DNA of 43,970 bases from a virus: the IMG/VR virus record IMGVR_UViG_3300029448_000064, positions 3,302 to 47,271 of that record. One strand, given 5' to 3'. The notes under the pieces were generated by a model. The model had not been told where the DNA came from and did no database searches. It worked only from the letters and a program-made list of their open reading frames with translations. Positions 6,922-27,786 of this stretch are shown here, piece after piece; position 1 is the stretch's first letter, and the number at the start of each line of letters is the position of its first letter. A program made the translations under genes and the position numbers.

Positions 6922-6929
6922 GAGGAGTT

Positions 6930-7963: not shown

Positions 7964-7964
7964 A

Positions 7965-9484: not shown

Positions 9485-12400
9485 TGGAAAACTTTAGTAA
9501 TTTTCAGCTAATCTATTTAGATGATGCATTAAAAGGTGGGTTAGTTACACCTGAAGACTACCTAAGTAGGTTAGAACTTGCATACAGAGCTAACCCTACA
9601 TCTTTTAACGAAGATGAAGTAGACTACATTGAAAAACAATTTAAGAAAGTAGATGTTAAGTTTGAACGTGACATGGTGGCGGGGGAAGCTAATGTTCTTA
9701 GTACTGTTAATCAATTTGTATCTGGTTTAGTAGAAGGTTTTACTACGTTAGGATGGTCAGAAGAACCTGATACAACAGTAGAATCTATATCTAATAAGCT
9801 AGGTCATTTAATTGGTTTTGCTCCTGATGTAATAGCATCGTTCTTTTCTATGGGTACGTACCTACCAGTAGCTACAGCTAAACGTATTGGTAAAGTAGGT
9901 TCTGGATTAACACAAGCAGGATTAAAAAAAGCAGCAGAAAAAGCACCTGCTATATTTCGTAAGGAAGTAGCACCAAAAACATTTATGTTACAATCAATAC
10001 CTATGAAGATAGCTGATAAAGTAACTGCACAAATAAAAGGTAGTATAGGTAAGTCTAGTTTAGAAGCAGGTGGTTATTTATCTAAAGGTATATTTGCTAA
10101 TAAAAAATTTAGAGCTATAGGAGAGCAAGGATTACACTTAGGTGTAGCATTAGGTGTGTCTTCTTGGAAAGAAGGACCTAGTGGAATGGTGCAAGCAGGT
10201 ATGCATGGTGCTGCAGCTGGTGCTATATTTGGTACTATAGGTAACTATGTTAATATAGGTAAGCTTATAGAAAATCCTAAGACTAGAGCAGAAGGTTTAA
10301 GAATTGTTAAAGGAGTAGCTAAAACAATATCAGATGATACAGCTAAGATGGAAGGTATAGACATGTTAGTTAAAGGTACTTTAGGTGCAGGTTTCCAGGG
10401 TGGTATGGCAACTATGCAAGGAGCACCAGTAGCTGAGCAAGTTTATGAGTATTTATTAGGTGGTTTCTTTGGTGCAACTGCACGTAGTGTAGGTTTTGTA
10501 GATAGACAAAGATGGATTATGAAGAACGACCCTAACTTATATGAGCTAGGTAAGCCAGTAGAAAAAATTATAAAAGAAATAGAAGCAGATCCAGAGTTTG
10601 GAAAGTTAGATAAGTCAGATCAATCGTATATTAAAAACCATATAGCTTTAGTACAACAACAAAAGTTTGATCAATTTGCCCCTTTAATTGGAAACATATT
10701 ACCTGAGTTTGCTGCAATAGCTAAAGAGAAAGGTTATAATCTTAAGAATTTAAATCAGAAACAATACGAAGAAGTTATACAAGATTATAAAAATGAAAAC
10801 GCTGCAGCAGGAATAGAACCAGCTGAATCTACAATATTAAAAGCAGCTACTATAGTAGAAGATGCTGCACCAGGAGGATTTAAACCTGCTAAAATAGTAA
10901 GTGAAAAACCCAGAAGAGCTGAAATTGTTGGAGAAAAAACGGGAGAAGCAGAAAGAATAGAGATAGAAAGAGCTGAAATTATTGAAAAAGAACCTTATAA
11001 AGAAGGTGCTAAAGACCAAAGAATAGATATAACTATAGCAGAAATGACTGAAGCTTTACAAACTAGAGACGCAACAGATCCTCCAGGAGTATTTAAAAAT
11101 AGAGACATAGAAATTATAGCAGATAATTTACGTTCATTTAAAATAGGTAAAAATAACGATGAAGTTATTATTGATTTAAATAGAATAGCTGAAGAAAGTA
11201 AGTATGAATATAATGAATTTATAGGTAAGATATTTAAAGAGTATGGAGTAGATGGTAAAACATTTTTAAGTGGAGAGTTAGGGGAAGTAAATAGAAATAG
11301 ACTTGGTAGTTATTTAAAATTAAAAAAACATTACGACAATAGATCTGATTTAGAAATAGATTTAAGTAGTAATAATGTTAGAATAGAAGTAATGCCTATA
11401 CAATCTGAAAAGGGTGAAGCTCTTGGAGGTGAAAGACCTCAAAATAAATTTAACAAAACTTTTGGATTAGAAGGACAACCTAAACCTAGATTAATAATTA
11501 GAAAAAGTTATATAACAAATGCATTAGAAAAATTTGGAAGTAGTCAAGGAAATAATAAAATAAAAACTAGGCAAACATTTACAAGAGAAAATCCTTTAGG
11601 TTATGACAGAGCAGAGTTTAAAGATTTTTTAACTAAAGAAATATTACTTGATATAAGACAAGCTGCTAAGAAAAGAGGAGCATATGTTTATGGTGGTGCA
11701 AAAGACAGTGGAGTTATATTGTTACATCGTTTTCCTATTAGTGAAAATCCAGAATCATTAAACTTTTTTTCTAGAGCACAGCAAATAGAGTTTATACAAA
11801 AAACATTTAGTTCAAACAAAACTAAAGATGGATTACACTTTGGATTAAATTTAAAAAAATTAAAAATAAATCCTAAAAGTAAAGAAGAAATAAACGCTGT
11901 AGATAAAGTAAAAGAAATTATTTCTAACATTCATTACTCTTTAGTAGAAGCTGGATACTTAGATACTAGTGTAGAGTTAAACTTTAATAGGTTTAATGCT
12001 GCTTATATTAAATATAAAAACGATCCATTGTTTAGTAGTGTACAAAAATTTAATAAGTATAATAATTTAGCACAAGGTGCTGACATACCATTAGAAAATT
12101 CAGACTATACTAATGCATTAAATACCAAGATAAAATTAAAACTAGATGGTAAAGATATTGATAAACCAGATTATTCTTTTGATGGCTTTATGAATGTTAT
12201 GATGATGCAAACAGATAAGGCTATGAAAGATAATCCATTTGAAGTTGGTGGTAAATTTTCTGAATCTGGTACTGATGCAGTAGTATATCAAAGACAAGAT
12301 ATATTTGATATAACACAAACTAAAAACTTTAGACCAGCAAAGAATGGATTTTTAAAACTTGTAGGTTATAGTAGTCCAAGGAATGGAGTAGGTAATATAT

Positions 12401-15400
12401 TAATGAAGACTGGTACCTTTAGAGCTACTGATGCTATGAATAAATTTATGATAAAAAATGACATACATATGATTGGTACAGATACTGCTATGAAAACTCA
12501 ATTAGGTTTGAAGAAGCATGTTTTAACTTACAGTAAACAATTAAATGAATGGATAGCATTTGCTGGAGCTAAAACTATACAACCATTTAGAATGAGACCA
12601 GAAGAACTATACCTTAACATGGGTGTATATGAAAACGATTCTAAGATTAATACTAACCTACCTTTATTAAAACAAATGTTTGATAAGATAAATGTAAATC
12701 AATTAGGTAAAGATGCTGAAGCTTTTAAAGCAGACTATTCTGAATTAATAGAAACATCTATTAAAGGTGTAGACGTAGTTAACAAAGAGTTTATAAAAGC
12801 TAGAGATGAATATTTTAAAAGTGGAAGAGATGAATATCAAATAAAAGATATTGATGAGTTAAGTTTAGATCTTGTAGAAGAAAGTATTAACAGTGGTGCT
12901 GGGACTGTTTTTGGTAGAAAAATGATTAAAGCTTTAATGGAAAGAGGTCAACAAGATTACCATAAATTAATAGAAGAGTCTACAGATTATGTAGATAAAA
13001 AAGTATATGGTATAGAAACGTATCAGATACCTGACATACTAAACAAGGTAGATTACGAACCTACAGCATTGTTAGCACAGCCTATGATATCTTATATAAA
13101 CAGAACGTTGTTAAGATATAGAACTTCTAGATTAGTAAAGCCTCATACTAGGTACGGTGCTACTGCAAAATTAGCTCCAAGAGATAATGAAATAGAACAA
13201 CTATTTAAAACATCATTACGTGATGACACTTTTTTATTACACGAATCTTTTGGTAAAGACTTTATGGTTAATGTTAAGCTTGATAAGAAAGATGGTGGTG
13301 GAGAGTTTACTTTGGAAACAGTGTTTGAAGTTTATAAAGACACTGTAGATCCAAAAAGTAAATCTAACTATACTGCTGAACAAAAATTTGCATACAAAGA
13401 AGCATTAGATTTTATAATTGTAAGGTCTCCTAACTCTGGTAACGGAGGTGTAAGAGTATTAAAGTTTCGTGGATTTGTAAAACGTAAAGGATATGGTATA
13501 GTTACTACATCTAAAAACGATTACTATTTAGGTGGTGCAGATAAAGATGCTGACTCTGTAAACATGTATCAGAACATGTCTAAAACTACTAAAGAAGTAT
13601 TTAAAAAATATGAAAATGAATTATACGATCCAGTTACAAAAGAAACATTTAGTTTTGAAAAGTCTTCTGGAATATTTGCAGACTTAATTAAAGAGTATGC
13701 TCCTTCAAAATTTGATGGACAAATTATGAGAGATCTATTTGACCCTGCCGTTCGTATCGATATTGCTAGAACTGCTAGAAGAGGTAAACAAAATATTAGT
13801 TATGTAGTAGATGGATCAGTAAGAATGCAAAACATATTAGATTTAATACAACAAAACAATGGAGAGATATCTACTATTCAAGCTAACGAAGCTAATGCTA
13901 ATCCTATTTTAGTAAAATTAAAATCAAGTTATCCTGGTAAAGGTAGGCTTACGTCAGAACAAATGGCTAAAGAATTACAAAAAGATAGTTATCAAATTAT
14001 AAATTTAATGGCTGACTCTTCTAATTTTACAACTATGCCTACACCTGATGTAATATTAAATAGAATGTTTAATACTTATTTTGAAATAATTGGTCAAGGT
14101 ACTCATTATAGAGGTGGAAAAACAGTAAACACTAACATGAAAGATTACAGAGAAGTTATGCAAAATCTAAGAGTGTTTAGATCTATAGAAGATGTACACT
14201 CTGTATTGTATAAAGGTAAAACTAATGGACAATTAAATCCAGATTACTATACTACTATAGCAGAAAACTATATAAGAGACTGGGGAGAATCAAATAATTA
14301 TTATTATACTTTAGCTAAAGGAGTTATTGATAATCCAAATTTTGTAATAAATCCTTTTCAGTTTTATGGTAATGAAATAATTAAGAAAAATTTAGGTGCT
14401 TCTAATTATGGAATATACGAAGCTACATCTTTATATGTACAAAGATTAAGAGATTTAGTTGCTAATAATAAATTATTTAAACAGGCTGGACTATTAGATA
14501 CATACAACTCTGACATAGAAAGTAAATTAAATTTAAAATTACTTATAAAAGAACCTACTTTATTACACAACAAATTAATGGAATACCAAGGTATGTGGAG
14601 AAGTTTAAGATTGTCTGATTATTTTATAAACAGTATGTCGGCTAGAGAAGATATACCTTATGGTAGTGAAACAGCTGAACTTATAGTTAAAGATATTATA
14701 AGAACTACATACAATATTAAATCATTCTTACAAGAAAATAGTTCTATAACTATGGATACTGTAATAGGTGGTAAGCGTAATGCAGAACCTAAAGATATAA
14801 ATCAAAATATAGCTAACCTAAAACAACAGTATGCAGAAAAATATCCTGAAATATTTAAAGAGATAGAATCAGTTATGGATTCATGGTTGTTAACTAAAAC
14901 AGCTATGATAGATCCTGCTAAAACAAAGTTTCAAGAAGAAATGCATGTTGATTTATTTCAACAAGGTCTAAAGATGGACAAAGAAATAGAGTTTTATTTA
15001 AAGAATGGAAACGAAAACAATTTAAAGAAAGCTTTTTATAATAAGAATGCAGCATTTAATAAATATGTACCAGACGGACACTTCTTAATTAAGTCTATTG
15101 CTATAAATAATAACAATCGTAAACAATTTTTTAAAGACTTAACAGTTATGTTATCAGAAAATTTAGAATCTATATCATCTAAACTACAATTAAATGAAGC
15201 TCAATTACAAGTTAGAGATTTTCAAAAAAATCAACCTGAATATATACCAATAGAAGTAATGAAAGATAATCCTAGTTTTCAATACAATCCTAATACTGGT
15301 AAAGGTAAACCTCCAGCAAATACTTCAGCTCCAAAAAATAAAAAAGTTTATAAAACTAGAGACATTATTGAGAACTTAGAAAATAATTTAATAGAAACAT

Positions 15401-18400
15401 TACCTCAATTTGATTGGACTCAAAGTAAAACAAATCCTAATAAAGTTATAACAGAAGCAGCTGATATAGAAATTAAAAGAACAAAAGAAATCTTACGTAA
15501 AAATCCTTCTGCTATTGAAAGGTTTGAAGAATTGTTTTTAGATTTAACATTTAGGTCAGAAGGTATAGGTAAAAGATTAGAACTGTTAACTACTAAAGAT
15601 TTAAAAATGTTAAATGATGCATTACAAGATAGGTTTAGTGCAAGAAGTATATTAGATAAGGTTACTGGAGAATTAAAACGTAAGCCAGGATGGATAGAAC
15701 AAACTTTAAACTATGAAGTTATAGGTAAAACATTAGAAGGTTTTGACAGAGTGGAATATGAAAAAAGAGCTATACCTATACTAGATAAATTTGGTCAAGA
15801 CAAACCTAAAACAATGAATGTTGTATTACCTACTAGTTCATTAGAACAAATAAGATTAAACATAGATAGATTTGATGGGCTAACACGTATACAAAGTAAT
15901 GCTATTGAAAAGAAACATACTGGTACATACTCATGGTTAAGTGTTAACGATCCAAATTTAAACAAACATGTTAATACATTAGTAGAAGCAGCGTGGCACT
16001 CTATTGAATACAATAATGGTAGGTATCCTACTGGAGAAAAAGGTGAGATATCAAGAAAGATATTAAAAGAAAACATGATGGACTCTATTGCACAAGTAGA
16101 AAAATTAGGTGATTTAAAATTTCCTGTACCTTCTAACAAGCTACCTGGTGAAAAAAGTGGAGAAGGTATAACAAGATATAAATCAGCTGCAGAAACAATA
16201 GAAGTAATTAAAGCAGATATGATAAAAGGTAACAAAGGAATTAATGATTACTACATTAAAAGTAGATGGCAACAATTAGGTAAACTACTATCACAAGCTA
16301 AAGTTCCTGGATTAAAAATTAAAAAATTAAAACATAAAGGTAAAGATGTAATTACTGTTGTAGGTGAATACAAGCCTAAAAAAATAATAGCACCTGGACA
16401 AAAAGGATTTGAAGAACAACAATTAGATTTAATGTTCTTAGATAAAAATGGATTAATAAGAGAAGACAGAGTGTCAGCTATATTTAGACACATTGAACGT
16501 ACACAAAATTTAGGTAGAGAAGTTATTAACACTTCATTACCAAGTGCTAATGATTACAGATATATAAAATATCAAATGGAAATTAAAGACAGAGTTGCAT
16601 TTGCTTACAAAGATATAGATGTATATAAGCCATTAAAAAAACAAGATGCAGACAAAGTAAAAAAATATGTAGAGATGGAACGAGACAAAGCAGGTTACAG
16701 TAAACACTTTATTGGAGACGTGCGTGAGGGGTATATGCCTAGACTTGGTCACACTATGATTAAGAAAAACATACCACTAGTTGAGAAGTTTATAAAAGAC
16801 AGAGTAGAAAATAGAATAGTTGAAGCTAGAAAAGATCCATCAAGATTACCATTGAAGTTTAGAATGTTACAACAATACGGTAAAAAAACAACTGAAGAAA
16901 TATTAGATCTATATAGAGAAGCTGAAACAGCTAAGTTTGAAAGATCAACTCAATACGAAGCAACTTCAGGACAAGTAGAATCAGAACGACAAGTATTAGA
17001 TTTACTTACACGACCAAACACCGATGGTTATGTCGGTGATTATGCAGCATCAATGACCAAGTCTAGAGCAGATGAATTTGTACCTTACTATAAAAAAGAT
17101 TTAGATGCATTGCGTATGTATGAAGCTGGATTTTTTAAATCACATTTAACAAACTTAGCAGGATTACGTACTGAAATAATCTTACGTAGGTTTGATTATA
17201 AAAATAAAGGTGAGAAATTTGTAAAGAACTGGTCTAATTATATGAGGAATGCAGCAGTAAATATGATGGGTATGTCATCTTACAGAGCACTGAACATACA
17301 TGGTATACAACAAAAAGATCAAGCTTTGTTTAAAAGATATATCAAAAACAAATTAGAACGAAAAGGTATGAAGCTTACACTTGACAGAGAAAAAGATTTG
17401 TTAATGGATTTTGATCATGCTATATCAGTAAGTGCAACTGAACAACAACACATATTGTTTAAGCATACTAAGGGAACAAAAAAAGAAGGTGTAATAGATA
17501 TTGATGCTGCTATTAAAGAAGTTGAAGCATTAAGAATGGAAAGAGCTATGCAATTATCAGAAGAAGTTAACACTACTGGTAAGTATGGTACTCTGTATCA
17601 TTACACTTCAGACGAAGCAGCTGTTAAATTATTTAAAGGACTAGATAAATTATTTGGTAATAGAATATTTGGTCCGTTACCTAAATCTCCAATGGAAGAA
17701 CGTTACACAATTATGAAACGTATAAGAGCATTGAGTGATCTTGAAGGTAAGTTTGAGTTGTTATCATTATTGTCTCACCCTAAAACTGCTATTACTAATT
17801 TATATGGTGGTACCGTTAATACCATATCAGATACAGGTTGGAAATCATTTAGACGAGCTAACAATTCTATGTGGATGAAAGAAAATATATTTAAAGATGC
17901 ATCATTTAAAGTTGTAGACGAATCTACAGGTAAATTAAAAAGACATTACTTTGAAAGCAGAAAAGAAATTGATATGTGGTTAGAGTCTATTGGTGTATAT
18001 GATCAAATGTTTTTAGACATGGTATCCTTAGACAGAAACTTTGGACAGAAAGGTGTTGTTAAATTTTGGCAAGAGTTTATTGTTCGTATGAATAGAAACG
18101 TACGTACAAAAGGAATTGAAACACAAGAAGCATACGAAACACAACAACGTAAAACATTAAGAGAAGTAGCCAGAGATCTTAAAGTAGAGATACCAATAGT
18201 AGAGTTTGGTGCTTTACCTATGAAATGGTCTGAACGTAAACTACGTGGTACTGCATTCTTAGCTAATTATATTAACATGCATCAAAATGTATTGGGTAAA
18301 CAAATGTCTGACTTAATGCCTTTTGATAGTCCAGTGTTTATTGATTATGGATTAAAAGGTGTATTGTCTTCTCAGTTTATGTATCAAGCTACCTTTAGAC

Positions 18401-19023
18401 CTAACTTTGCTAACACTTCTTTAGGTCGTGTACTTACTAGGTTCCAGCCTTATGCTTGGAATAGTGTAGGTAGACGTATGAAACTATTTAAAGGTGCTAG
18501 ACAATCACAATGGAACAGTGAGCATCAAGCAAGTAAAAAATTCCAAAGACAATTTACATTTGATTTAATGTCATTAGCTTTAGCTAACGTATTTGTTGCA
18601 AGTATTTTTGAATATGCATTATCACCTCCAATGTCATGGATGCAAGACTCTGCACAATTATTATTTGGTGATCCCAAAGAACGTGAACGAGCTTTTTTTA
18701 GTTCTTATCCTCATCCAGTATTAGCACCATTACAAATTGTAACACCTCCTATAGGTAGGTTTGTAATATCTCCTATAAGTTCTTTATTGAATAACGATTT
18801 TGAATCATTTACACAATATCAATTAGCAACATATTTTCCTTTTGGTAGATTGTATCGTGATGCAAAGAAAACATACGAGTCTCCAGCTATGGCTGTTGAT
18901 TTTATGACAGGTATGCCATTACATCAAGTTCATACTATGCAAAGAGATCGACTCGAAAGAGATAAAATTCTTGAAGAGCAGCTGTCTGAAATGACAGACG
19001 ACATGAGGTCTGACTTCGAGTAA
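9484..19023 (+). CDS. Giant (3179 aa) internal virion protein; candidate two-barrel virion RNA polymerase
   Basis: A single frame of 9.5 kb, last gene of the rightward unit and third of an ejection-protein trio. Gly/Ala-rich hydrophobic segments lie near residues 105-125, 220-265 and 325-345, and one near the C terminus (about 3030-3050), which suits membrane passage. Residues 440-525 are a charged low-complexity linker. The key stretch is about 1300-1360: Arg1314-Ser-Pro, a run of beta strands (Val-Arg-Val-Leu-Lys-Phe-Arg-Gly-Phe), then Gly-Gly-Ala-Asp1353-Lys-Asp1355-Ala-Asp1357-Ser-Val. This is the layout of the second double-psi beta-barrel of RNA polymerases, where three Asp bind catalytic magnesium. 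Upstream, Asp900-Gly and Lys1004/Lys1010-Lys1011 could belong to the first barrel. crAss-like phages inject such a polymerase and N4 injects a 3500-residue one of another fold. The polymerase call is inference; the virion role is likelier. It starts with GTG and no visible ribosome site. Confidence 0.6.
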   Translation: MENFSNFQLIYLDDALKGGLVTPEDYLSRLELAYRANPTSFNEDEVDYIEKQFKKVDVKFERDMVAGEANVLSTVNQFVSGLVEGFTTLGWSEEPDTTVESISNKLGHLIGFAPDVIASFFSMGTYLPVATAKRIGKVGSGLTQAGLKKAAEKAPAIFRKEVAPKTFMLQSIPMKIADKVTAQIKGSIGKSSLEAGGYLSKGIFANKKFRAIGEQGLHLGVALGVSSWKEGPSGMVQAGMHGAAAGAIFGTIGNYVNIGKLIENPKTRAEGLRIVKGVAKTISDDTAKMEGIDMLVKGTLGAGFQGGMATMQGAPVAEQVYEYLLGGFFGATARSVGFVDRQRWIMKNDPNLYELGKPVEKIIKEIEADPEFGKLDKSDQSYIKNHIALVQQQKFDQFAPLIGNILPEFAAIAKEKGYNLKNLNQKQYEEVIQDYKNENAAAGIEPAESTILKAATIVEDAAPGGFKPAKIVSEKPRRAEIVGEKTGEAERIEIERAEIIEKEPYKEGAKDQRIDITIAEMTEALQTRDATDPPGVFKNRDIEIIADNLRSFKIGKNNDEVIIDLNRIAEESKYEYNEFIGKIFKEYGVDGKTFLSGELGEVNRNRLGSYLKLKKHYDNRSDLEIDLSSNNVRIEVMPIQSEKGEALGGERPQNKFNKTFGLEGQPKPRLIIRKSYITNALEKFGSSQGNNKIKTRQTFTRENPLGYDRAEFKDFLTKEILLDIRQAAKKRGAYVYGGAKDSGVILLHRFPISENPESLNFFSRAQQIEFIQKTFSSNKTKDGLHFGLNLKKLKINPKSKEEINAVDKVKEIISNIHYSLVEAGYLDTSVELNFNRFNAAYIKYKNDPLFSSVQKFNKYNNLAQGADIPLENSDYTNALNTKIKLKLDGKDIDKPDYSFDGFMNVMMMQTDKAMKDNPFEVGGKFSESGTDAVVYQRQDIFDITQTKNFRPAKNGFLKLVGYSSPRNGVGNILMKTGTFRATDAMNKFMIKNDIHMIGTDTAMKTQLGLKKHVLTYSKQLNEWIAFAGAKTIQPFRMRPEELYLNMGVYENDSKINTNLPLLKQMFDKINVNQLGKDAEAFKADYSELIETSIKGVDVVNKEFIKARDEYFKSGRDEYQIKDIDELSLDLVEESINSGAGTVFGRKMIKALMERGQQDYHKLIEESTDYVDKKVYGIETYQIPDILNKVDYEPTALLAQPMISYINRTLLRYRTSRLVKPHTRYGATAKLAPRDNEIEQLFKTSLRDDTFLLHESFGKDFMVNVKLDKKDGGGEFTLETVFEVYKDTVDPKSKSNYTAEQKFAYKEALDFIIVRSPNSGNGGVRVLKFRGFVKRKGYGIVTTSKNDYYLGGADKDADSVNMYQNMSKTTKEVFKKYENELYDPVTKETFSFEKSSGIFADLIKEYAPSKFDGQIMRDLFDPAVRIDIARTARRGKQNISYVVDGSVRMQNILDLIQQNNGEISTIQANEANANPILVKLKSSYPGKGRLTSEQMAKELQKDSYQIINLMADSSNFTTMPTPDVILNRMFNTYFEIIGQGTHYRGGKTVNTNMKDYREVMQNLRVFRSIEDVHSVLYKGKTNGQLNPDYYTTIAENYIRDWGESNNYYYTLAKGVIDNPNFVINPFQFYGNEIIKKNLGASNYGIYEATSLYVQRLRDLVANNKLFKQAGLLDTYNSDIESKLNLKLLIKEPTLLHNKLMEYQGMWRSLRLSDYFINSMSAREDIPYGSETAELIVKDIIRTTYNIKSFLQENSSITMDTVIGGKRNAEPKDINQNIANLKQQYAEKYPEIFKEIESVMDSWLLTKTAMIDPAKTKFQEEMHVDLFQQGLKMDKEIEFYLKNGNENNLKKAFYNKNAAFNKYVPDGHFLIKSIAINNNNRKQFFKDLTVMLSENLESISSKLQLNEAQLQVRDFQKNQPEYIPIEVMKDNPSFQYNPNTGKGKPPANTSAPKNKKVYKTRDIIENLENNLIETLPQFDWTQSKTNPNKVITEAADIEIKRTKEILRKNPSAIERFEELFLDLTFRSEGIGKRLELLTTKDLKMLNDALQDRFSARSILDKVTGELKRKPGWIEQTLNYEVIGKTLEGFDRVEYEKRAIPILDKFGQDKPKTMNVVLPTSSLEQIRLNIDRFDGLTRIQSNAIEKKHTGTYSWLSVNDPNLNKHVNTLVEAAWHSIEYNNGRYPTGEKGEISRKILKENMMDSIAQVEKLGDLKFPVPSNKLPGEKSGEGITRYKSAAETIEVIKADMIKGNKGINDYYIKSRWQQLGKLLSQAKVPGLKIKKLKHKGKDVITVVGEYKPKKIIAPGQKGFEEQQLDLMFLDKNGLIREDRVSAIFRHIERTQNLGREVINTSLPSANDYRYIKYQMEIKDRVAFAYKDIDVYKPLKKQDADKVKKYVEMERDKAGYSKHFIGDVREGYMPRLGHTMIKKNIPLVEKFIKDRVENRIVEARKDPSRLPLKFRMLQQYGKKTTEEILDLYREAETAKFERSTQYEATSGQVESERQVLDLLTRPNTDGYVGDYAASMTKSRADEFVPYYKKDLDALRMYEAGFFKSHLTNLAGLRTEIILRRFDYKNKGEKFVKNWSNYMRNAAVNMMGMSSYRALNIHGIQQKDQALFKRYIKNKLERKGMKLTLDREKDLLMDFDHAISVSATEQQHILFKHTKGTKKEGVIDIDAAIKEVEALRMERAMQLSEEVNTTGKYGTLYHYTSDEAAVKLFKGLDKLFGNRIFGPLPKSPMEERYTIMKRIRALSDLEGKFELLSLLSHPKTAITNLYGGTVNTISDTGWKSFRRANNSMWMKENIFKDASFKVVDESTGKLKRHYFESRKEIDMWLESIGVYDQMFLDMVSLDRNFGQKGVVKFWQEFIVRMNRNVRTKGIETQEAYETQQRKTLREVARDLKVEIPIVEFGALPMKWSERKLRGTAFLANYINMHQNVLGKQMSDLMPFDSPVFIDYGLKGVLSSQFMYQATFRPNFANTSLGRVLTRFQPYAWNSVGRRMKLFKGARQSQWNSEHQASKKFQRQFTFDLMSLALANVFVASIFEYALSPPMSWMQDSAQLLFGDPKERERAFFSSYPHPVLAPLQIVTPPIGRFVISPISSLLNNDFESFTQYQLATYFPFGRLYRDAKKTYESPAMAVDFMTGMPLHQVHTMQRDRLERDKILEEQLSEMTDDMRSDFE

Positions 19024-20124: not shown

Positions 20125-21912
20125 TTACAAGTTTACTTTTGTGAATGTCATTGTCTCAGGATGAAACTGTGTTAATAGTTCTAATCGTCCATCATCTCTA
20201 GACTTTTCAGTAACTACTGTTCTGTATTGATCGTTTCTATTTCCTTTTATTACAACAACCTTGTCTGCTTTTTGTACTACATTGGACGAACCTTTAAGTG
20301 AGTGTAATCCAACCATACCTTGTGCTGCACTAGCTTTATTTAAATGATGTATAGCAAAAATCAAAGTGTTATTTCGTTGTGCAATTTGCTTTAACGTATC
20401 AATAACTATGTTTTGTTTTTGTATATCACCATCAAATCTATCTACTTGCATTTCGTCAGTAGTATCTACTACTAATATATTAGGTTCGTATTGTGCTACT
20501 ACTTTCTTAACAGCTTCTATTTCAGGAGCAATAACCATTATTTTTAAATGATCTAACTCGTCTTTAACAGAAAAATCTGGATCACTTTTGTATTGATTAA
20601 TTACCCAATCATTAGTTTGTCCTTTTACTATCTGCACAAACCTTCTCCATATTAATATCTCATTCATTTCTAATGATAAAAATAAAGTATCTTTTTTGGC
20701 TTGTGCTACAAGATTTTGTACAAACGCTGTCTTACCCATACCAGTGTCACCACTAAATATAACTAACTCTCCAGGTTTAAACACGTAATCTTGTGCTCCA
20801 TGAAATACGTCAGCAATATTAATACTTCTTTTAGTGAAGTCTTTCTCTATATACTCTTTGAATGTATCTTCTAAAGTATTTGAATCACGTATATCTAATA
20901 CATAATCTTTTCTTTTAAAGTGTATACATTTCGGATCACAGTATTCCATTAAGATAGTGTCGTCACATCCGTATATATATTGATTATCATATACGTTTGT
21001 AACAGTACGTTCTATTTCATTTGCTTCCATAGTATCTTGTGCCCACTTGTTAATACCGTTTAACGATACTATAAATGGTATTCCAGCTCTTTTCCAAGAG
21101 CTAACCATTCTCATCATATTTTTATTTCTAGACCCTTGTATAGGTCCTTCATTAAATATGTGTTGAACACAAGTAACTACAGAATTAGCATCACTAGTAC
21201 GCATTGGTTTCAAACTAACGTTTGCTTTATTAGCAATGATAGACGTTTGTAAGTAAGGTTCTACTATTGTATCATGACTATTAAACGTAGCGTAAAAGTT
21301 AGGCTTAGTTTTTTCATACTCTTTGTAACTTTTTCTTGACTTAGCTATATTGCAGACATCATCATAAGATAAATTAAATATATCTTCTAATGGTAGCCAT
21401 ACTTTATGTAAGTTAGTTTTCTTGTTTAATGACCAAGGTGATCTTATAATTCTAGTCTTATCGTATATGTTATCACCAAAACTAAAATGTTCTGTTAAAG
21501 TTGATTTAACTTTTTCATGTACATTTTTGTTAGGTTGAAAACCAAATACATTAAGTAGCTCAATATGATAACCGCTGCCACTAAACCATACGTTAACATG
21601 GCTACTATCAATACCAAAATCAAACAACTCATTACAAGAATGTATGAGATAGCTTTGCATATTTTGTCCATCGATTTCCCCTTTGTCTAAATCTATAATA
21701 ATTCTATTGGGATATGCTAATCCTTCATAGTTTTTTACAGAGTTGGTTTTTAATACATGATCTTTGAACGTTGTGTCAAACAAATAATATGATACATACA
21801 TTTCTTTTTTGAATGCATTTACATTTACTTTCTTTAAATAACTTTCGTAATCACATATAATATTTCTATTACTAATTGTATCTTCTACAATTTCTACTAT
21901 TCTATTCTCCAT
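20125..21912 (-). CDS. AEP-type primase fused to DnaB-like helicase
   Basis: A 595-residue two-domain replication protein. The N-terminal part shows the archaeo-eukaryotic primase motifs: Asp74-Leu-Asp76 after three Ile, Ser111-Gly-Ser-Gly-Tyr-His116, and an Arg-rich third motif near 154-171 (Thr-Arg-Ile-Ile-Arg-Ser-Pro-Trp). A Cys cluster at 316, 325 and 329 may bind zinc. The C-terminal RecA-like domain has a Walker A, Gly388-Asp-Thr-Gly-Met-Gly-Lys394-Thr, and a Walker B ending in Asp482, as in DnaB-family helicases. It should prime and unwind the phage origin. No DNA polymerase gene is present here, so it presumably recruits the host enzyme. Confidence 0.85.
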   Translation of the reverse strand: MENRIVEIVEDTISNRNIICDYESYLKKVNVNAFKKEMYVSYYLFDTTFKDHVLKTNSVKNYEGLAYPNRIIIDLDKGEIDGQNMQSYLIHSCNELFDFGIDSSHVNVWFSGSGYHIELLNVFGFQPNKNVHEKVKSTLTEHFSFGDNIYDKTRIIRSPWSLNKKTNLHKVWLPLEDIFNLSYDDVCNIAKSRKSYKEYEKTKPNFYATFNSHDTIVEPYLQTSIIANKANVSLKPMRTSDANSVVTCVQHIFNEGPIQGSRNKNMMRMVSSWKRAGIPFIVSLNGINKWAQDTMEANEIERTVTNVYDNQYIYGCDDTILMEYCDPKCIHFKRKDYVLDIRDSNTLEDTFKEYIEKDFTKRSINIADVFHGAQDYVFKPGELVIFSGDTGMGKTAFVQNLVAQAKKDTLFLSLEMNEILIWRRFVQIVKGQTNDWVINQYKSDPDFSVKDELDHLKIMVIAPEIEAVKKVVAQYEPNILVVDTTDEMQVDRFDGDIQKQNIVIDTLKQIAQRNNTLIFAIHHLNKASAAQGMVGLHSLKGSSNVVQKADKVVVIKGNRNDQYRTVVTEKSRDDGRLELLTQFHPETMTFTKVNL

Positions 21913-22148
21913 CCTTTTACCTTACTTTTATTATGTTGAACTTCTTCTAATTTAATTCCATGCCTCTTTAAAGTATTACTTTCACGTATCTTTCTAAATG
22001 CCCTAGCATAAGTACTTGCAGTGTGCATTTTTTGATGTACAAGTCTACCATAATTAGGCAATGACCCTTCTAAATCGTAACTATAAAAGACTGGATTACT
22101 AGTTTTTATACTTTTAATCCAGCCAATTACGATGTCTTTTGCAGACAT
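21897..22148 (-). CDS. Small basic protein in the replication operon, unknown
   Basis: An 83-residue protein starting in a TAATG overlap with the SSB-like gene and overlapping the primase-helicase by 16 bases. Sequence such as Ala-Ser-Thr-Tyr-Ala-Arg-Ala-Phe-Arg-Lys-Ile-Arg-Glu followed by Val-Lys-Gly-Trp-Arg-Ile-Glu at the end resembles a small winged-helix DNA-binding domain (recognition helix then wing). That reading is tentative. A loader or origin-binding role would suit its position. Confidence 0.6.
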   Translation of the reverse strand: MSAKDIVIGWIKSIKTSNPVFYSYDLEGSLPNYGRLVHQKMHTASTYARAFRKIRESNTLKRHGIKLEEVQHNKSKVKGWRIE

Positions 22149-22708
22149 TAGAACGGCACTTCAGAACCATCAAAAGCTTTCTTAACCATATCAACTGTAG
22201 CTTTTTCTTCTACTGTTTCAGTTGCTTGTGATGCTATGTTTTTATCATAGTCTTTAGGGTAACCTTTACTAATCTGTTGATTAAAACGAGACTCTAGTTG
22301 TTCTTTTGCATCTATTGATGATAAAACTCCCCAGGTATTACGTTTATATTTACCAGTAGATTTGTATGTAATGCAAGCTACCTTTTTATTTGCTAAAGAT
22401 TCAAGTGATTTAGTATCTAAAACACCATTATCTGCTACATTTAGATCGCATCCAGCTGCAACAAACAAAGTATTTAGATCGTCAGGATATTTTAATCCTG
22501 TTACTATGTCATTTGTATCTTTTTCAAAGTTTTGATTAACAAAACAAATATAAGTATAGCCATTATTGTCGTCTGTCAACTCTAATTTTAAACTCATGTC
22601 TGTATATTGTGAATCCATTACTTCAATATCAGTAATAGAACAATCATTTACAAAGTAATTTCTTGTATTACTACCTCTATTATTCATTTTTGTACCATTT
22701 ATAGCCAT
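22148..22708 (-). CDS. Single-stranded DNA-binding-like protein
   Basis: A 186-residue protein with an OB-fold-like beta-rich N-terminal part (about 1-130), a variable linker, and a C-terminal tip Gly-Ser-Glu-Val-Pro-Phe. The tip closely mirrors the acidic Asp-Asp-Ile-Pro-Phe tail that bacterial SSB uses to recruit partner proteins. It is located directly upstream of the primase-helicase in the same operon. The core is too diverged to call from sequence alone, so the tip and context carry the assignment. GGAGG precedes the start. Confidence 0.65.
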   Translation of the reverse strand: MAINGTKMNNRGSNTRNYFVNDCSITDIEVMDSQYTDMSLKLELTDDNNGYTYICFVNQNFEKDTNDIVTGLKYPDDLNTLFVAAGCDLNVADNGVLDTKSLESLANKKVACITYKSTGKYKRNTWGVLSSIDAKEQLESRFNQQISKGYPKDYDKNIASQATETVEEKATVDMVKKAFDGSEVPF

Positions 22709-22971
22709 TACGCCTCCGTTCCTGTACGATTATCGTTAATATAGTCTTGGTTTTTGTCATTGATAGCGTCTTGCATCATATCATTATGGTTTTCCATGTG
22801 TTGATGTAATGCTTTTGTTGTTTGTTCAGTATCAATGTAATCATATCCGTATTGACCGCCTTGATATGCTATTCTTACGAGTACATAATCACCATGATCG
22901 TTACTAATATATTGAATGTCTCCTTCATTCATGTCAGATATTGTATGTTTACTTGCTTCCTTTTGACTCAT
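22708..22971 (-). CDS. Small acidic protein in the recombination group, unknown
   Basis: An 87-residue protein. I chose ATG 22971 over 22983 because GGAGG sits five bases upstream of it. It overlaps the end of the annealing-like gene and ends one base into the SSB-like start. It is Asp/Asn/Gln/His-rich, with Tyr-Gln-Gly-Gly-Gln-Tyr-Gly-Tyr-Asp in the middle. No motif allows a function. Confidence 0.6.
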   Translation of the reverse strand: MSQKEASKHTISDMNEGDIQYISNDHGDYVLVRIAYQGGQYGYDYIDTEQTTKALHQHMENHNDMMQDAINDKNQDYINDNRTGTEA

Positions 22972-23527
22972 TCTTGCCTCCATCCAGTATCTGTGTTTCT
23001 AAATAAGATTTAGTAGTGCCAACTCTTACTAACGTATCAAAGTATCCATCTGATCTTTGTTTTGTATACTTAAGAAAGTGTTCTTCACCTATAAAAGGCT
23101 TAGCTTTTTTTGCTAAGTCATCTAATTCTTCTAGATGTTTGATCTTAACATGTGATTTAACTGCTGCTGCTTTAGCATTATCTACTTCATCTTTAGAAGC
23201 TATTGAATAACCTCCACCAAATCCAGCAAATGCTAATGCTCTACCAACTGCAGATGTTTCACAGTTTTCTAATGCTGATGTCTTGTTTACAAATCCTGTA
23301 TTGTCACGTTCAGCTGCGTAACCAGTGTAATACATATCAGGATTAGTTTGTTTGTCAGGATATACAGTAGACTTAATCATGTATTCATTACATCTTTCAC
23401 CTGATGGTGTGTCTGTAATATTGTTTACTGATATAAGTTCTGTTTCTATTGTAGAAGTAGGATATTCTGATAAGAATGCTTCCACACGATCTTTTACTTC
23501 TGTATATTCTTTGCCTTTGAACTTCAT
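22949..23527 (-). CDS. Putative ERF/Rad52-type single-strand annealing protein
   Basis: A 192-residue protein containing Glu-Asn-Cys-Glu-Thr-Ser-Ala-Val-Gly-Arg-Ala-Leu-Ala-Phe-Ala-Gly-Phe-Gly (about 86-103) and then Ser-Lys-Asp-Glu-Val. This element, best known as Glu-Thr-Ser-Ala-Ile-Gly-Arg-Ala-Leu-Ala, is common to a phage family treated as ERF/Sak-like annealing or ssDNA-binding proteins. The neighbouring SSB-like and resolvase-like genes agree with a recombination role. GGAG precedes the ATG. The family name is from memory, so confidence in the exact type is moderate. Confidence 0.6.
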   Translation of the reverse strand: MKFKGKEYTEVKDRVEAFLSEYPTSTIETELISVNNITDTPSGERCNEYMIKSTVYPDKQTNPDMYYTGYAAERDNTGFVNKTSALENCETSAVGRALAFAGFGGGYSIASKDEVDNAKAAAVKSHVKIKHLEELDDLAKKAKPFIGEEHFLKYTKQRSDGYFDTLVRVGTTKSYLETQILDGGKNESKGSK

Positions 23528-23602: not shown

Positions 23603-23779
23603 TTAATCTTGCAAGTATTTTTCGTACATAAACTCTCCATAATCCTTACATCCTGTACATAATGCTACGTAAGTTTCGTCTTCTAAATCTTTACCCGATT
23701 CAGATATTGGTTCTGATGCTGGCGAACCATTAGTACATACTGTACATATTAAATCGCCTGGATCATCATTGTTATTCAT
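23603..23779 (-). CDS. Small zinc-ribbon-like protein
   Basis: A 58-residue protein with two CxxC knuckles (Cys-Thr-Val-Cys and Cys-Thr-Gly-Cys) separated by about 27 residues, a spacing typical of small zinc ribbons. I chose ATG 23779 with AAAGGAAATAAC before it rather than the upstream TTG at 23794. It is acidic between the knuckles. It could be a regulator or a nucleic-acid or protein binder. It lies between the E1-like gene and the replication genes, with gaps on both sides. Confidence 0.65.
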   Translation of the reverse strand: MNNNDDPGDLICTVCTNGSPASEPISESGKDLEDETYVALCTGCKDYGEFMYEKYLQD

Positions 23780-23827
23780 GTTATTTCCTTTCAATCAAAA
23801 GGGCCGCTATTTATAGTGGATTACGAA

Positions 23828-23864: not shown

Positions 23865-24527
23865 TTACGTAGTAAATGACTTGTAATCTAATGCCATAGT
23901 AGGAAAATTAAAAGCAAAACTTTGTTGATAAGGCTCGCTTCTTAATATCTTTTTAATGGTATTACTAATAAAACTACCGCTCATATTACTACAATATGAT
24001 GTTGCCTTAGCATTACATGGCTCACTACTACCTTCTTCGTCAGAATACCATGTTGCTAAGTATTGTTTCATTGTTGGATTTTTAAATGTATACTGCTGAT
24101 AATGTTCAGCACCCATACGTCCATCAATTAACAGTAAAGGCTTTCTCTTCTTCATTATTTTCTCTACTGCGTCTTTTCTACTATCCATAGAATCAAATCC
24201 CAATACAATTATGTCATTATTATCTTGACCTTGTGTATTGTGCTCTTCAAACAATCCATTGTAAATACTTATATCGCATTCTGGATTAATATCTTCCAGT
24301 ATTTCTTGCAATGCTTTTACTTTTGGCATGTTCAAATGTCTGTGTGAGTACATAGATACACCAATATTTTCAGTATTGACTTCATCCATGTCGTATAAAT
24401 TAATATTTACACCACCCATTCTAGCAATTTGACTAGCTGCGGCACTACCAATAGCACCGCAACCTAATATATGATAGGTATATTTATCAAATGAATTTAC
24501 AAGGGCTTTGTATCTTTGATTTATCAT
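23865..24527 (-). CDS. ThiF/E1-like adenylating enzyme for a ubiquitin-like protein
   Basis: A 220-residue, single-domain E1-like protein. Evidence: a Rossmann nucleotide loop Gly22-Cys-Gly-Ala-Ile-Gly27, Asp46-Met-Asp48-Glu-Val at the end of the second strand, Asn54, Lys69-Val-Lys71, Asp112/Asp115-Ser-Arg117, and Cys171 in Glu-Pro-Cys-Asn-Ala-Lys-Ala-Thr-Ser-Tyr, where E1 enzymes carry the thioester or sulfur-carrier Cys before Thr-x-Tyr. The family adenylates the C-terminal Gly of a beta-grasp protein. ATG 24527 is preferred to TTG 24533 because it forms an ATGA overlap with the peptidase stop and has GGGGG upstream. It is smaller than eukaryotic E1 and near the size of MoeB/ThiF. Context argues against thiamine synthesis: no thiamine genes, but a JAMM peptidase and Gly-Gly protein adjacent. 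Confidence 0.85.
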   Translation of the reverse strand: MINQRYKALVNSFDKYTYHILGCGAIGSAAASQIARMGGVNINLYDMDEVNTENIGVSMYSHRHLNMPKVKALQEILEDINPECDISIYNGLFEEHNTQGQDNNDIIVLGFDSMDSRKDAVEKIMKKRKPLLLIDGRMGAEHYQQYTFKNPTMKQYLATWYSDEEGSSEPCNAKATSYCSNMSGSFISNTIKKILRSEPYQQSFAFNFPTMALDYKSFTT

Positions 24528-25414
24528 CTCCAACCCCCATAACTTAATGCATTAGCTTGATTAATTGCTACATCGGGATCAAACTTAGTTCCTTTAGCAT
24601 GTATATAACAATCAGCATCTACAAAATTGATAACTAAATCAAGATAATCTTTACTAATCTTACCAACTCTTAGCTCACTCTTATCTTTTCTTAGTTTCTG
24701 GTTTATCTTTCCTATGTCTGCACTGTATTTATTGTAATTATTGTTAGTTAAATAATTAAGTAATACATCATCCACCTTGCATTCAAGATTAACTCTTTCA
24801 GCGTCTGAACCAGTTTCTTCATCATCTGTAAATATACTTACTTGATTTTTATTGTTGTAAGTCCATCCTGATTTGTAGCTACCAGCAACTTTAGGCATTG
24901 TAGTTATAACACTTGTAGGTTTTGTGCACAACTTATCCACTTTATTAACTATACCCTTTGGTATTTCAGACATACCTTCAATTTCAATATCAACATCTAC
25001 GTGAACTTCTAACGGTTCCCAGATACTGATCCTAAACTTGTATTCTTCTTTCAGGTTTACTACTAAACTAAACGAGACTTTACTATTAGATGATTGTTGT
25101 ATAGCTGTTAAGTCTGTTCCGCTCCAGAAAGCTGCCATTGTATGATGACTATGCCACCAACAATAATATATATCTTTAGGATGATATTGCATACCCGTTT
25201 TCATTAGGTATTTTGCTAAATCATCTCTATCTATTACTGTATTACCTGCAGTTATTTCCTGTTTAAGTATCACTGGATCTAACATTCTAAATGTACCGTC
25301 ATCTTCTTTGACGACTACCATGTAGCCGCCAATTTCTGATTGATGTTCATCCCATGCATACTTTGAATAGTTCTGGATAGTATTCCAGTCTTTCTTACTT
25401 ATTACGTAACTCAT
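24524..25414 (-). CDS. JAMM/JAB-domain metallopeptidase (deubiquitinase-like)
   Basis: A 296-residue protein. The N-terminal ~130 residues are a JAB domain with the complete zinc motif: Glu27 in Ser-Glu-Ile-Gly-Gly, His88-Ser-His90, then exactly seven residues to Ser98-Gly-Thr-Asp101. All four metal/catalytic residues are intact. In bacteria such domains trim or remove ubiquitin-like proteins. The C-terminal ~160 residues (Lys/Asp/Asn-rich) are unrecognised and may bind substrate. It starts in an ATGA overlap with the E2-like gene and ends in an ATGA overlap with the E1-like gene, so the three are surely co-translated. Its probable substrate is the Gly-Gly protein two genes upstream. Confidence 0.85.
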   Translation of the reverse strand: MSYVISKKDWNTIQNYSKYAWDEHQSEIGGYMVVVKEDDGTFRMLDPVILKQEITAGNTVIDRDDLAKYLMKTGMQYHPKDIYYCWWHSHHTMAAFWSGTDLTAIQQSSNSKVSFSLVVNLKEEYKFRISIWEPLEVHVDVDIEIEGMSEIPKGIVNKVDKLCTKPTSVITTMPKVAGSYKSGWTYNNKNQVSIFTDDEETGSDAERVNLECKVDDVLLNYLTNNNYNKYSADIGKINQKLRKDKSELRVGKISKDYLDLVINFVDADCYIHAKGTKFDPDVAINQANALSYGGWR

Positions 25415-27450
25415 GTTCTTATTCCTCTCATTGCAACTTCCATCATTCTATCTTCCATAGACATGTCAGTAGTTGGTTCTTGTTCTTCTTCTTGTTCTTC
25501 TTCTTCACCTAGATAATCTTCCTCGTGAAAGTAGTTATTCAGAGACGCTCTTTCATCAAATGGCAATCTTTCATAGACTCTATCTGATAAACCATTACCA
25601 TCTTCAGTCATGCTCGATAAAGGGTCTGCTTGATTTGCTATGTATGTGTTAAGTTCTGAAACTTTACGTTCAGTTTTAACGTTATCATCACCAGTAACTT
25701 TGTCAATAAACTCTACAAATTCTACATATAATGTAGAAAGTTCTCTTGACTTACAGTTGTTAGCATCTAACCAATCAACTAAACTTATCATAGAATTTAA
25801 TATATATTCTTGACAAGTTGTTATGTATTGATCAGCTTTATCCATATCGCTATCTTCCATTTGATTTACACCGTTATGTTGCATCATAACATTTCTAAAC
25901 TCTAGTTCTCTTTCACCACTTTTAATATTATTAGCATGCTTTACTGTTTCATACGTAGGTAACCATTCGTATCTAGTAAAATCATAACCATAATATGATT
26001 CTCGTTCTGGAATATTGTCGTAATCATACGCATACCACAATACAGCACTATTGTATCTATCTCTTGAACTATAAGATACATCATCATAGTAACCAGACTT
26101 TTGACTTTCGTCTGTGTTTGAATCATCTAATGTAATAGCTATGTCGTAATCTACATTAATTTGATTTAAGTATCTAGCATACATCAAGTTAATTGGTAAG
26201 CCTACATCAGTAATAAATGTATCACTATAGCTATCATCTACACATAATATAGATTTATGTATTGATTGCAACGGTTGAGTAACACCTAATGTATATATTT
26301 GCCACGAATTTAACGCAGTAAATAGTCTCATAAAATCCAAACGAACAACAGATTCTACGATTTCATCATTAAGATTACCAAAACATATGTTATTACCACT
26401 GTTGAAACCATTACCATCTTCAGTCATGCTTGTCCAATAATTATTAAGACGTCCACCAGTTTGTGTTCGTAGACTTTCTTTACCTTGACTAAAGAATGGA
26501 TGATTGTATGTAATCTGATTATCATATTGATTTGATGTATTATATCCAGCCCATCTACCTTTCATTTTAAATGACGGCCAAGCTTGCACACCATACAAGT
26601 TTCTTTCTGATGATGTTACACGATAACGATCGTTACTTGCTATCATTTGTCCATCAAGATTCTTAATATCATGAGCAAACATTGCATCTACCATGTTAGC
26701 CATAGGTAATTCAAAGAATAAATAAATAGGTTCAGTAGGAATTTGTCCCACTATGTCACCTTCTTTATTCATTACTGTTATTGATGGCTTATTGTATTTA
26801 ACTTCCAAAGTAAACACAGAAGTTTTCCACTTAATAACTTCAACTTTTTCTGGCGTACCAGCTAAATATTCATCATCAGTTACTTCATTGAATGCTATAT
26901 AACTATCTAATTCTACATTACACATATCTGGAATAATTTTCTTAGCTGATTCCATTTTATCTTGTATAGTTTTCATTAACAGTTCATATCTATTTACACC
27001 TGTATCAAGCGTATCATCCATAGTAACCTTTCTTGAACGCAACTCTTTCATCTGATCTTCTATAGTTAATATCTTATCAATAAACTCTCGTCTAGTCCAT
27101 TTCATTCTTGCAGGCCTGTTTCTAAGTATAGCTTCCAACGTACCAGGTTTATCATATTGTAAGAACCTTGTTTGTAACGCTTTTAATATACTATCTTTGA
27201 ATCCACGCTTCCACCTATATGTTCTTGTAACACCTATCGGTTCTATTGGATCTAACACTGATCTGTTTCCATATATATATGTGCTTGTAATGTAGCTTCT
27301 ATTGATTCGGTCTAGCTCACGTAACAACTTCTTTTGTGGGCCCATAACTAAATGTTTACCTACTTCAGCCATATCTATACTGTAATCTTCAATTTCTTGA
27401 CGCATTTCTATTTCCTCTCTTTTGATTATTAATTTATCTAAATAATACAT
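25411..27450 (-). CDS. Large protein with E2-like signature, part of modifier cassette
   Basis: About 679 residues from ATG 27450. The frame is open to GTG 27498, and a further ATG at 27405 has the best ribosome site (AGAGGA), so the start is uncertain. The centre, numbered from 27450, has beta-rich sequence, then Tyr-Asn-His317-Pro318-Phe-Phe, a ~37-residue insertion, and Asp-Gly...Asn-Asn-Ile-Cys356-Phe-Gly-Asn followed by a helix (Leu-Asp-Phe-Met-Arg-Leu-Phe-Thr-Ala-Leu-Asn-Ser-Trp). That order (His-Pro, Asp-Gly, Ile-Cys-x-Gly, helix) is the E2/Prok-E2 core with Cys356 as possible thioester site. The insertion is longer than in classical E2s. Flanking regions are helical and charged; the C terminus is Glu-rich. 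The E2 call is inference; it could also be a cassette-specific target or scaffold. An octapeptide is repeated at its Cys motif and near its C terminus. Confidence 0.6.
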   Translation of the reverse strand: MYYLDKLIIKREEIEMRQEIEDYSIDMAEVGKHLVMGPQKKLLRELDRINRSYITSTYIYGNRSVLDPIEPIGVTRTYRWKRGFKDSILKALQTRFLQYDKPGTLEAILRNRPARMKWTRREFIDKILTIEDQMKELRSRKVTMDDTLDTGVNRYELLMKTIQDKMESAKKIIPDMCNVELDSYIAFNEVTDDEYLAGTPEKVEVIKWKTSVFTLEVKYNKPSITVMNKEGDIVGQIPTEPIYLFFELPMANMVDAMFAHDIKNLDGQMIASNDRYRVTSSERNLYGVQAWPSFKMKGRWAGYNTSNQYDNQITYNHPFFSQGKESLRTQTGGRLNNYWTSMTEDGNGFNSGNNICFGNLNDEIVESVVRLDFMRLFTALNSWQIYTLGVTQPLQSIHKSILCVDDSYSDTFITDVGLPINLMYARYLNQINVDYDIAITLDDSNTDESQKSGYYDDVSYSSRDRYNSAVLWYAYDYDNIPERESYYGYDFTRYEWLPTYETVKHANNIKSGERELEFRNVMMQHNGVNQMEDSDMDKADQYITTCQEYILNSMISLVDWLDANNCKSRELSTLYVEFVEFIDKVTGDDNVKTERKVSELNTYIANQADPLSSMTEDGNGLSDRVYERLPFDERASLNNYFHEEDYLGEEEEQEEEQEPTTDMSMEDRMMEVAMRGIRT
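25589..26430 (-). repeat. 26-bp perfect direct repeat within the E2-like gene
   Basis: The 26 bases at 25589-25614 recur exactly at 26405-26430, and both copies are read in the same frame as Ser-Met-Thr-Glu-Asp-Gly-Asn-Gly. The distance, 816 bases, is a multiple of three. One copy immediately precedes the proposed catalytic Cys; the other is about 65 residues from the C terminus. Confidence 0.9.
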
Positions 27451-27513
27451 ATGTTTCTCTCTTCTTAATGTATGAAGGGCAGCAACTAATGTTACCACCC
27501 TCCATGTTATCTA

Positions 27514-27786
27514 CTACCTAGCGTCTCCACCAGTTTTATCGTTGCTCATGAAGGCAACCCAAACTAAAGTGTCTTCACTATTGTTCGGTGCTAAGTCAGC
27601 ATTTCTGTTGACATTACGCAAGTTCATAGTGATTGAACTATTAGCTGGTACATCTACACCACAATCTGTAGATAAATAATTAATAAATTGCTCTATTGTG
27701 GTAACATGAGCTGGTACATTGGTATCTGTTACCCATTGTCCGTCACCCACATTGTATTTTACGCCTGTTATTGTACTCTCTGACAT
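27514..27786 (-). CDS. Ubiquitin-like (beta-grasp) protein ending in Gly-Gly-Asp-Ala-Arg
   Basis: A 90-residue protein (ATG 27786 chosen for the AGAGG site six bases before it; a longer frame starts at 27807). The order of elements fits a ThiS/MoaD/ubiquitin-type beta-grasp fold: a beta hairpin (about 5-24), a helix (Thr-Ile-Glu-Gln-Phe-Ile-Asn-Tyr-Leu, 29-38), a strand (Ile-Thr-Met-Asn-Leu-Arg-Asn-Val), and a last strand after Glu-Asp (Thr-Leu-Val-Trp-Val-Ala-Phe), leading to Gly86-Gly87. The Gly-Gly is followed by Asp-Ala-Arg, a short tail that would need removal before E1 activation, a job suited to the adjacent JAMM peptidase. It is the first gene of the cassette. The fold is inferred from pattern; the Gly-Gly tail and neighbours are direct observations. 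Confidence 0.65.
   Translation of the reverse strand: MSESTITGVKYNVGDGQWVTDTNVPAHVTTIEQFINYLSTDCGVDVPANSSITMNLRNVNRNADLAPNNSEDTLVWVAFMSNDKTGGDAR

Follow-up and report, generated by a model that had tools for sequence, protein, structure and literature searches.

The locus described here raises the question of whether a bacterial virus can own a complete pathway for attaching a ubiquitin-like protein (Ubl) to other proteins and for removing it again. Bacterial examples of Ubl conjugation come mostly from antiphage immunity and from cassettes carried by plasmids. The window, by which we mean the whole stretch of 43,970 bases that was analyzed, is part of a 50,796-base IMG/VR virus record. It belongs to a tailed phage: the plus strand carries genes for TerL (PHROG 38, 2e-79), a P22-like portal (Pfam, 3e-54) and an SU10-type capsid protein (Pfam, 1.5e-33). 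The cassette lies within a minus-strand gene run that also holds a DnaB-like replicative helicase (Table 1).

A Ubl-modification cassette had been predicted by a model from the sequence, as four consecutive leftward open reading frames, the last three joined by ATGA overlaps. All four were found on the minus strand, and both overlaps, one between the large-protein and JAB genes and the other between the JAB and E1 genes, are present in the DNA; a short spacer separates the stop of the Ubl gene from the large-protein gene. The residue numbers used below differ from those of the original prediction. The ATG start at 27450 had been used for the large protein, so that its Cys356 is Cys372 here, and Cys171 of the E1 corresponds to Cys173 because we used the longer open reading frame start.

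Table 1. Genes of the cassette and of the same operon, in window coordinates
Feature	Coordinates	Strand	Details
Ubl	27514..27786	(-)	90 aa from ATG, ends NDKTGGDAR
E2-like large protein	25411..27498	(-)	695 aa from GTG 27498, or 679 aa from ATG 27450
JAMM/JAB metallopeptidase	24524..25414	(-)	296 aa, C-terminal extension present
ThiF-type E1	23865..24533	(-)	222 aa from TTG, or 220 aa from ATG 24527
Small CxxC...CxxC zinc-ribbon-like protein	23603..23794	(-)	directly after E1
Three operon genes between E1 and helicase	22148..23527	(-)	in 20-29 loci at conserved offsets
DnaB-like replicative helicase	20125..21912	(-)	PHROG 19, 1.9e-22; weak primase similarity, PHROG primase 7.9e-9

The predicted Gly-Gly of the Ubl is present and is followed by a three-residue tail (KTGG-DAR), which would have to be removed to expose it. 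Gly86 and Gly87 are invariant in all 54 aligned Ubls, and Lys84 is kept in at least 90% of them. Among the Ubls of distinct relatives, 29 of 57 stop exactly at Gly-Gly, and the rest carry tails, mostly short. The window Ubl itself had no credible family in scans of Pfam, NCBIfam, PHROGs and PADLOC. The nearest sequence families are ThiS and MoaD, and Pfam ThiS was matched by 18 of the 54 members (best 4e-6). The beta-grasp fold on which the prediction depended was recovered in an AlphaFold model of the 90-residue protein (pLDDT 81.5), where the elements follow the order beta-beta-alpha-beta-beta-beta. The best Foldseek matches of this model in the PDB were ubiquitin, ISG15, Urm1, NEDD8 and archaeal ubiquitin, with probabilities mostly of 0.96-1.0 and E-values of only about 1e-2. 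Judging from the model, the protein thus appears to combine a beta-grasp fold with a C-terminal Gly or Gly-Gly.

It should be mentioned that some Ubls continue for 30-117 residues beyond Gly-Gly (L114:2288-2878, L115:1078-1515 and L088:2597-2911), so that a cut by the JAMM peptidase after Gly-Gly would set a second polypeptide free.

The peptidase matched Pfam Prok-JAB (1.6e-5), and among solved proteins it comes nearest to the Rpn11 homologue from the ubiquitin system of Caldiarchaeum subterraneum (E 1e-4). The residues said to be intact, Glu27, His88, His90, Ser98 and Asp101, are all in place, and E27, H88-S-H90, S98 and D101 are invariant in 24 of 24 sequences; with this intact E..HxH..S..D pattern the protein belongs to the JAMM/MPN+ peptidases. 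No NlpC/P60 match was found in this protein with Pfam. The E1 matched Pfam ThiF (3e-22); its best NCBIfam matches were also ThiF, and its PDB profile matches comprised MccB, UBA5, UBA6, ThiF, Cap2 and Bub. The Gly-x-Gly-x-x-Gly motif that had been noted reads GCGAIG, and the GCGAIGS loop, D48, D50, K71, D114, C173 and C181 are invariant in all 31 sequences. Only one of the two cysteines, C173, is common to the E1s of crAss-like phages, Flavobacterium phages and PRTRC cassettes, which makes it the candidate for the thioester cysteine; it is also the one named previously. With its glycine loop, adenylation residues and candidate cysteine the protein is a member of the ThiF/E1 superfamily. A tblastn search with the window E1 against plasmids returned weak MoeB/TcdA-type matches only. 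The four-gene set, as it had been read from the sequence, is confirmed, the family matches and invariant residues going beyond what chance would give, and its interpretation is supported.

The E2 fold proposed for the large protein was neither established nor contradicted. The motif register with PRTRC protein B, the position of the gene in the operon and a structural match to the protein that occupies this position in crAss-like phages speak for it, while no E2 match was obtained in Pfam or the PDB. Relatives of the protein show only about 13-33% identity to it, and of the four proteins compared it has diverged most (median identity 0.18). Cys372 is its only invariant residue (61 of 61 aligned sequences); P334, W399 and P409 are kept in at least 90% of the 61. 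The motif HPYI...VCxG...W..Y...TNPLN (HP at 334, C372, W399, P409) has its landmarks in the same order as PRTRC protein B (APLxN...CxG...W...FTHPN), and in hhalign alignments the common HP/AP..C.G..W..(Y/F)..T(N/H)P falls in register, at a probability of about 2% (P about 0.02) that is weak in absolute terms. For the cropped core, one of 200 column shuffles scored as high, and the reversed profile reached 9.7 vs 18.4. The full-length comparison with PRTRC B was weak, being equalled by 11 of 200 shuffles, and only the cropped core stood out. In most relatives several conserved cysteines (C..C..C..C), likely a metal site, follow the E2-like motif; they have been lost from the window protein, and L003 and L006 retain only some.

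Family searches with the large protein gave no credible match in Pfam, NCBIfam, PHROGs and PADLOC, and no E2 family occurred among the Pfam matches listed for its 61 relatives. A sequence profile search of the PDB and a Foldseek search of its model against the PDB yielded noise only and no E2, Pfam Prok-E2_B had no match in the virus's own record, and tblastn against the phage collection found none. Neither a profile of the E2/UBC family nor a solved fold of it was matched. In the model (pLDDT 73.6, core above 90) a long N-terminal part is helical, and there are a helix, several successive strands and Cys372 directly ahead of two helices, an order of elements that is compatible with an E2-like fold but is not proof of it. 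In a Foldseek search of the predicted viral structures of BFVD the top six matches were unnamed proteins, probably members of the same family. The next matches with a probability above 0.5 were A0A7M1RZ27 (cr128_1, 435 aa, 0.66) and A0A1B0WLX5 (420 aa, 0.85). A0A7M1RZ27 is exactly as long as the protein encoded directly before JAB-E1 in cr128_1 (L119:2210-3517), and A0A1B0WLX5, identified by length only, is as long as the Fpv1 protein at L038:2470-3732. Cys372 together with the PRTRC B motif order, the crAss-like structural match and the operon position give us moderate confidence that the large protein is E2-like.

The gene order was expected to recur in relatives, and it did. A pattern search for JAB retrieved 36 viral loci, and one for E1 retrieved 337 stretches, the best 80 of which were kept; some contigs occurred in both sets. 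In nearly all of these loci with enough flank the order was Ubl, large protein, JAB and E1. With the JAB and E1 patterns, whose shortness limits sensitivity, no confirmed relative was found when about 85,000 genomes of bacteria and archaea were searched. Since searching with the cassette itself introduces a bias, we also sampled relatives with the downstream helicases of the window and of three divergent relatives as queries. All four genes were present in 37 of the 38 helicase-anchored loci having at least 7.4 kb upstream, and E1 was present in 52 of 54 having at least 3.3 kb upstream; the query relatives were taken from cassette-bearing contigs, and distant helicase lineages devoid of the cassette could therefore be missed. 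The four-gene set is conserved and near-fixed beside replication genes in a large group of relatives.

The exception is L174, where the cassette site (5717-8177) holds three unrelated open reading frames (341, 133 and 347 aa), the first of which presumably resembles DUF932-type phage and plasmid proteins; no E1 was found in the 36.9 kb record. Since other genes occupy its place there, the cassette is not indispensable. Two loci have the Ubl gene after E1 and not ahead of the large protein (L030:9555-9764 and L034:9548-9754). In L157:1375-2711, on the contig that also contains L051, JAB comes directly after the Ubl gene and E1 is present; no large protein was found in this 27.8 kb record, which possibly represents a natural E2-less variant.

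The helicase is a downstream neighbor in the same operon, outside the cassette, and lies about 2.1 kb (median) past the E1 start in 103 loci. The three genes between E1 and helicase had no named family in Pfam, NCBIfam and PHROG scans. Several relatives (e.g., L073, L082, L086) have small CxxC proteins similar to that of the window immediately behind E1; from its sequence, the protein could be an accessory component or adaptor of the system. The cassette genes co-vary with each other (Spearman rho 0.58-0.63 vs 0.33-0.38 with the helicase), as expected of proteins that work together. Elsewhere in the window, positions 9484-19023 hold an open reading frame of 3179 aa without a Pfam match, which clusters with open reading frames in 26 loci, mostly partial at contig or flank ends.

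A distant version of the cassette was revealed in crAss-like and Flavobacterium phages, whose E1 relatives show 25-30% identity. The order in crAss-like phages is primase, a protein of ~200-300 aa, a protein of ~400 aa, JAB, ThiF, a gene of unnamed function and uracil-DNA glycosylase. In the cultured Bacteroides phage crAss001 the block corresponds to gp79-gp76 (L124:2334-6744), and further distant blocks were found in the crAss-like and Flavobacterium phage loci L037, L117-L120, L125 and L038. The first small crAss-like protein opens with a beta-grasp-like stretch ending KKIKSGA, and the profile of these Ubl-like proteins aligned with the marine Ubl profile above all 200 shuffles; the ~400 aa protein carries HSHV...CxG. 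When the crAss E2-like protein was compared directly with PRTRC B, 46 of 200 shuffles did as well, so that the match is not significant. Both crAss001 gp79-gp76 and the Fpv1 counterpart resemble the window cassette in having Ubl-like, possible E2-like, JAB and ThiF proteins in the same order. They differ from it in that the crAss-like Ubl domain has Ser-Gly at its end and continues into a fused C-terminal extension, that the E2 motif reads HSHV..CxG instead of HPYI..VCxG, and that the flanking genes are primase and uracil-DNA glycosylase. The crAss-like blocks adjoin replication genes; the genes of the crAss-like and Flavobacterium phage blocks are annotated only as thiamine biosynthesis protein, metalloprotease or hypothetical. 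The word ubiquitin does not appear in the searched text of the 2021 crAss-like phage analysis (PMC7886860) and of the crAss001 paper (PMC6235969).

In our opinion, the cassette is probably a reversible Ubl-conjugation system that the phage expresses with its replication operon; the conjugation itself, the E2 role of the large protein, the roles of the cysteines, the target and the benefit are what we infer. The JAMM peptidase would trim the DAR tail and leave a Ubl ending in Gly-Gly, where about half of the relatives' Ubls already end. The E1 would adenylate Gly87 with ATP and form a thioester, most likely on Cys173. The Ubl would then be passed to Cys372 of the E2-like protein, whose surfaces would also choose the target, and be joined to a lysine of a replication-active protein, either a replication or recombination protein of the phage or a DNA-metabolism protein of the host. 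The JAMM peptidase could also strip the Ubl, which would make the mark reversible. That two distant phage groups both have the set next to replication genes speaks for a replication or recombination target, and its constant place in the replication operon fits a role in DNA replication or recombination better than virion marking. More tentatively, with confidence just short of an even chance, it can be hypothesized that two distant groups of tailed phages, a widespread marine podovirus-like lineage and the gut crAss-like phages, run their own complete cascade of Ubl conjugation and deconjugation, which controls phage DNA replication.

The main chemical rival is a sulfur-carrier pathway, in which a ThiS/MoaD-like Ubl would bear an E1-made thiocarboxylate for a thio-modified nucleotide, tRNA or metabolite, and the JAMM peptidase would only trim the tail. 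The Ubl is indeed nearest to ThiS and MoaD, the best NCBIfam match of the E1 is ThiF, and sets of JAB, ThiS and E1 occur in sulfur assimilation operons (Iyer 2006, PMC1779556). However, no gene for a sulfurtransferase, rhodanese or cysteine synthase was found among the operon genes scanned, and the large protein with its invariant cysteine, kept in nearly all relatives, would have no role, so that we consider this pathway unlikely. The large protein is also the subject of a reading that seems to us unlikely as well, if somewhat less so, namely that Ubl, E1 and JAMM suffice, as in archaeal sampylation, and that it is the main substrate or a scaffold instead of an E2. The lack of an E2 match in Pfam and the PDB, the presence of a locus without recognizable large protein (L157) and the co-variation with E1 of a protein that is yet the most divergent are all in line with this reading. 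It accounts less well for a cysteine within an HP..C.G..W motif that never varies among 61 highly divergent sequences, for the register with the PRTRC B motif and for the location of the gene at the E2 position of the operon.

Alternatively, the set may intercept the host systems CBASS Cap2/Cap3, Bil or Bub, for example by JAMM deconjugation or by tagging a defence protein. Bacteria do use Ubl conjugation against phages, as in the Cap2-driven conjugation of cGAS (PMC10097602), and L174 has other genes in the place of the cassette, as is the case for accessory conflict genes. Still, an own Ubl and E1 would be superfluous for mere deconjugation, and the cassette is near-universal in its lineage and locked to the helicase, whereas counter-defence genes usually have a patchy spread; we judge this function to be improbable to about the same degree as the sulfur-carrier pathway. 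A role in marking or maturation of virions, suggested by the analogy with TAPI and TAPK of lambda, has in its favor that a Ubl and JAB pair occurs in tail operons of the lambda/T1 type (PMC1779556), but it is very improbable for a cassette that lies in a replication operon, with the structural genes on the other strand, is accompanied by an E1 and has a JAB without an NlpC/P60 match. Reversible conjugation of the Ubl to a replication-active target is thus the reading that we prefer.

If the marine lineage and the crAss-like phages do run such a cascade to control their replication, it would be the first that belongs to bacterial viruses instead of being directed against them. Ubiquitin is touched on only briefly in a jumbo-phage overview (PMC7824862), and in the literature searched, to which subscription papers and preprints did not belong, we found no description of a complete Ubl cascade in a bacterial virus; we do not claim priority. 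A near-fixed complete cascade in a phage replication operon would be a reversal, with phages owning such systems. The findings suggest that protein tagging may regulate phage replication, that phage cassettes are a further reservoir from which ubiquitin systems could have evolved, and that abundant gut phages have genes wrongly labelled "thiamine biosynthesis protein ThiF". The distant version in the cultured phage crAss001 offers a setting in which this can be tested.

Comparison with known systems revealed both common and distinct features. In lambda/T1-type tail operons a phage Ubl (TAPI) is paired with a JAB-NlpC protein (TAPK) (PMC1779556). These are late tail genes without E1 or E2, in contrast to the window cassette with its location in the replication operon. 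CBASS Cap2/Cap3 has the same E1, E2 and JAMM chemistry, and Cap2 is among the profile matches of the window E1; however, Cap2 is a fused E2-E1 that conjugates cGAS, whereas the phage encodes separate proteins with an E1 of 222 aa and a dedicated Ubl. No CD-NTase was found among the operon proteins scanned, and a type II CBASS operon is thus not recognized here. Bil and Bub operons have dedicated Ubl, E1, E2 and JAMM parts. The Bub E1 is likewise a profile match of the window E1, but both are cellular systems, Bil being used against phages, while the window cassette is owned by a phage.

The plasmid PRTRC cassette, apparently operon type 6d of Iyer 2006 (PMC1779556), consists, like that of the window, of separate genes for a Ubl-like protein, an E2-like protein B, a JAB protein A and a ThiF/E1. 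Their relative order (Ubl-like C .. B (E2) - A (JAB), B - ThiF) agrees with the Ubl-E2-JAB-E1 order of the window, and the position of the E1 cysteine and a similar E2 motif are also common to both. The NCBIfam PRTRC cut-offs were not reached by the window E1 (17.2 of 144.75 bits) or JAB (14 of 101.8), and the cassette was therefore not filed as PRTRC. No PRTRC family score was obtained in NCBIfam for the large protein or the Ubl, and no match to PRTRC B, C, E, F or ParB was found among the operon and neighboring proteins scanned, a set that did not include all smaller open reading frames. Points of difference from PRTRC are the Gly-Gly close to the end of the window Ubl, the long and helical N-terminal part of the large protein, and the location of the cassette in a phage replication operon. 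Nevertheless, judged by its gene order and its E2 motif, the phage cassette would work most like the PRTRC cassette.
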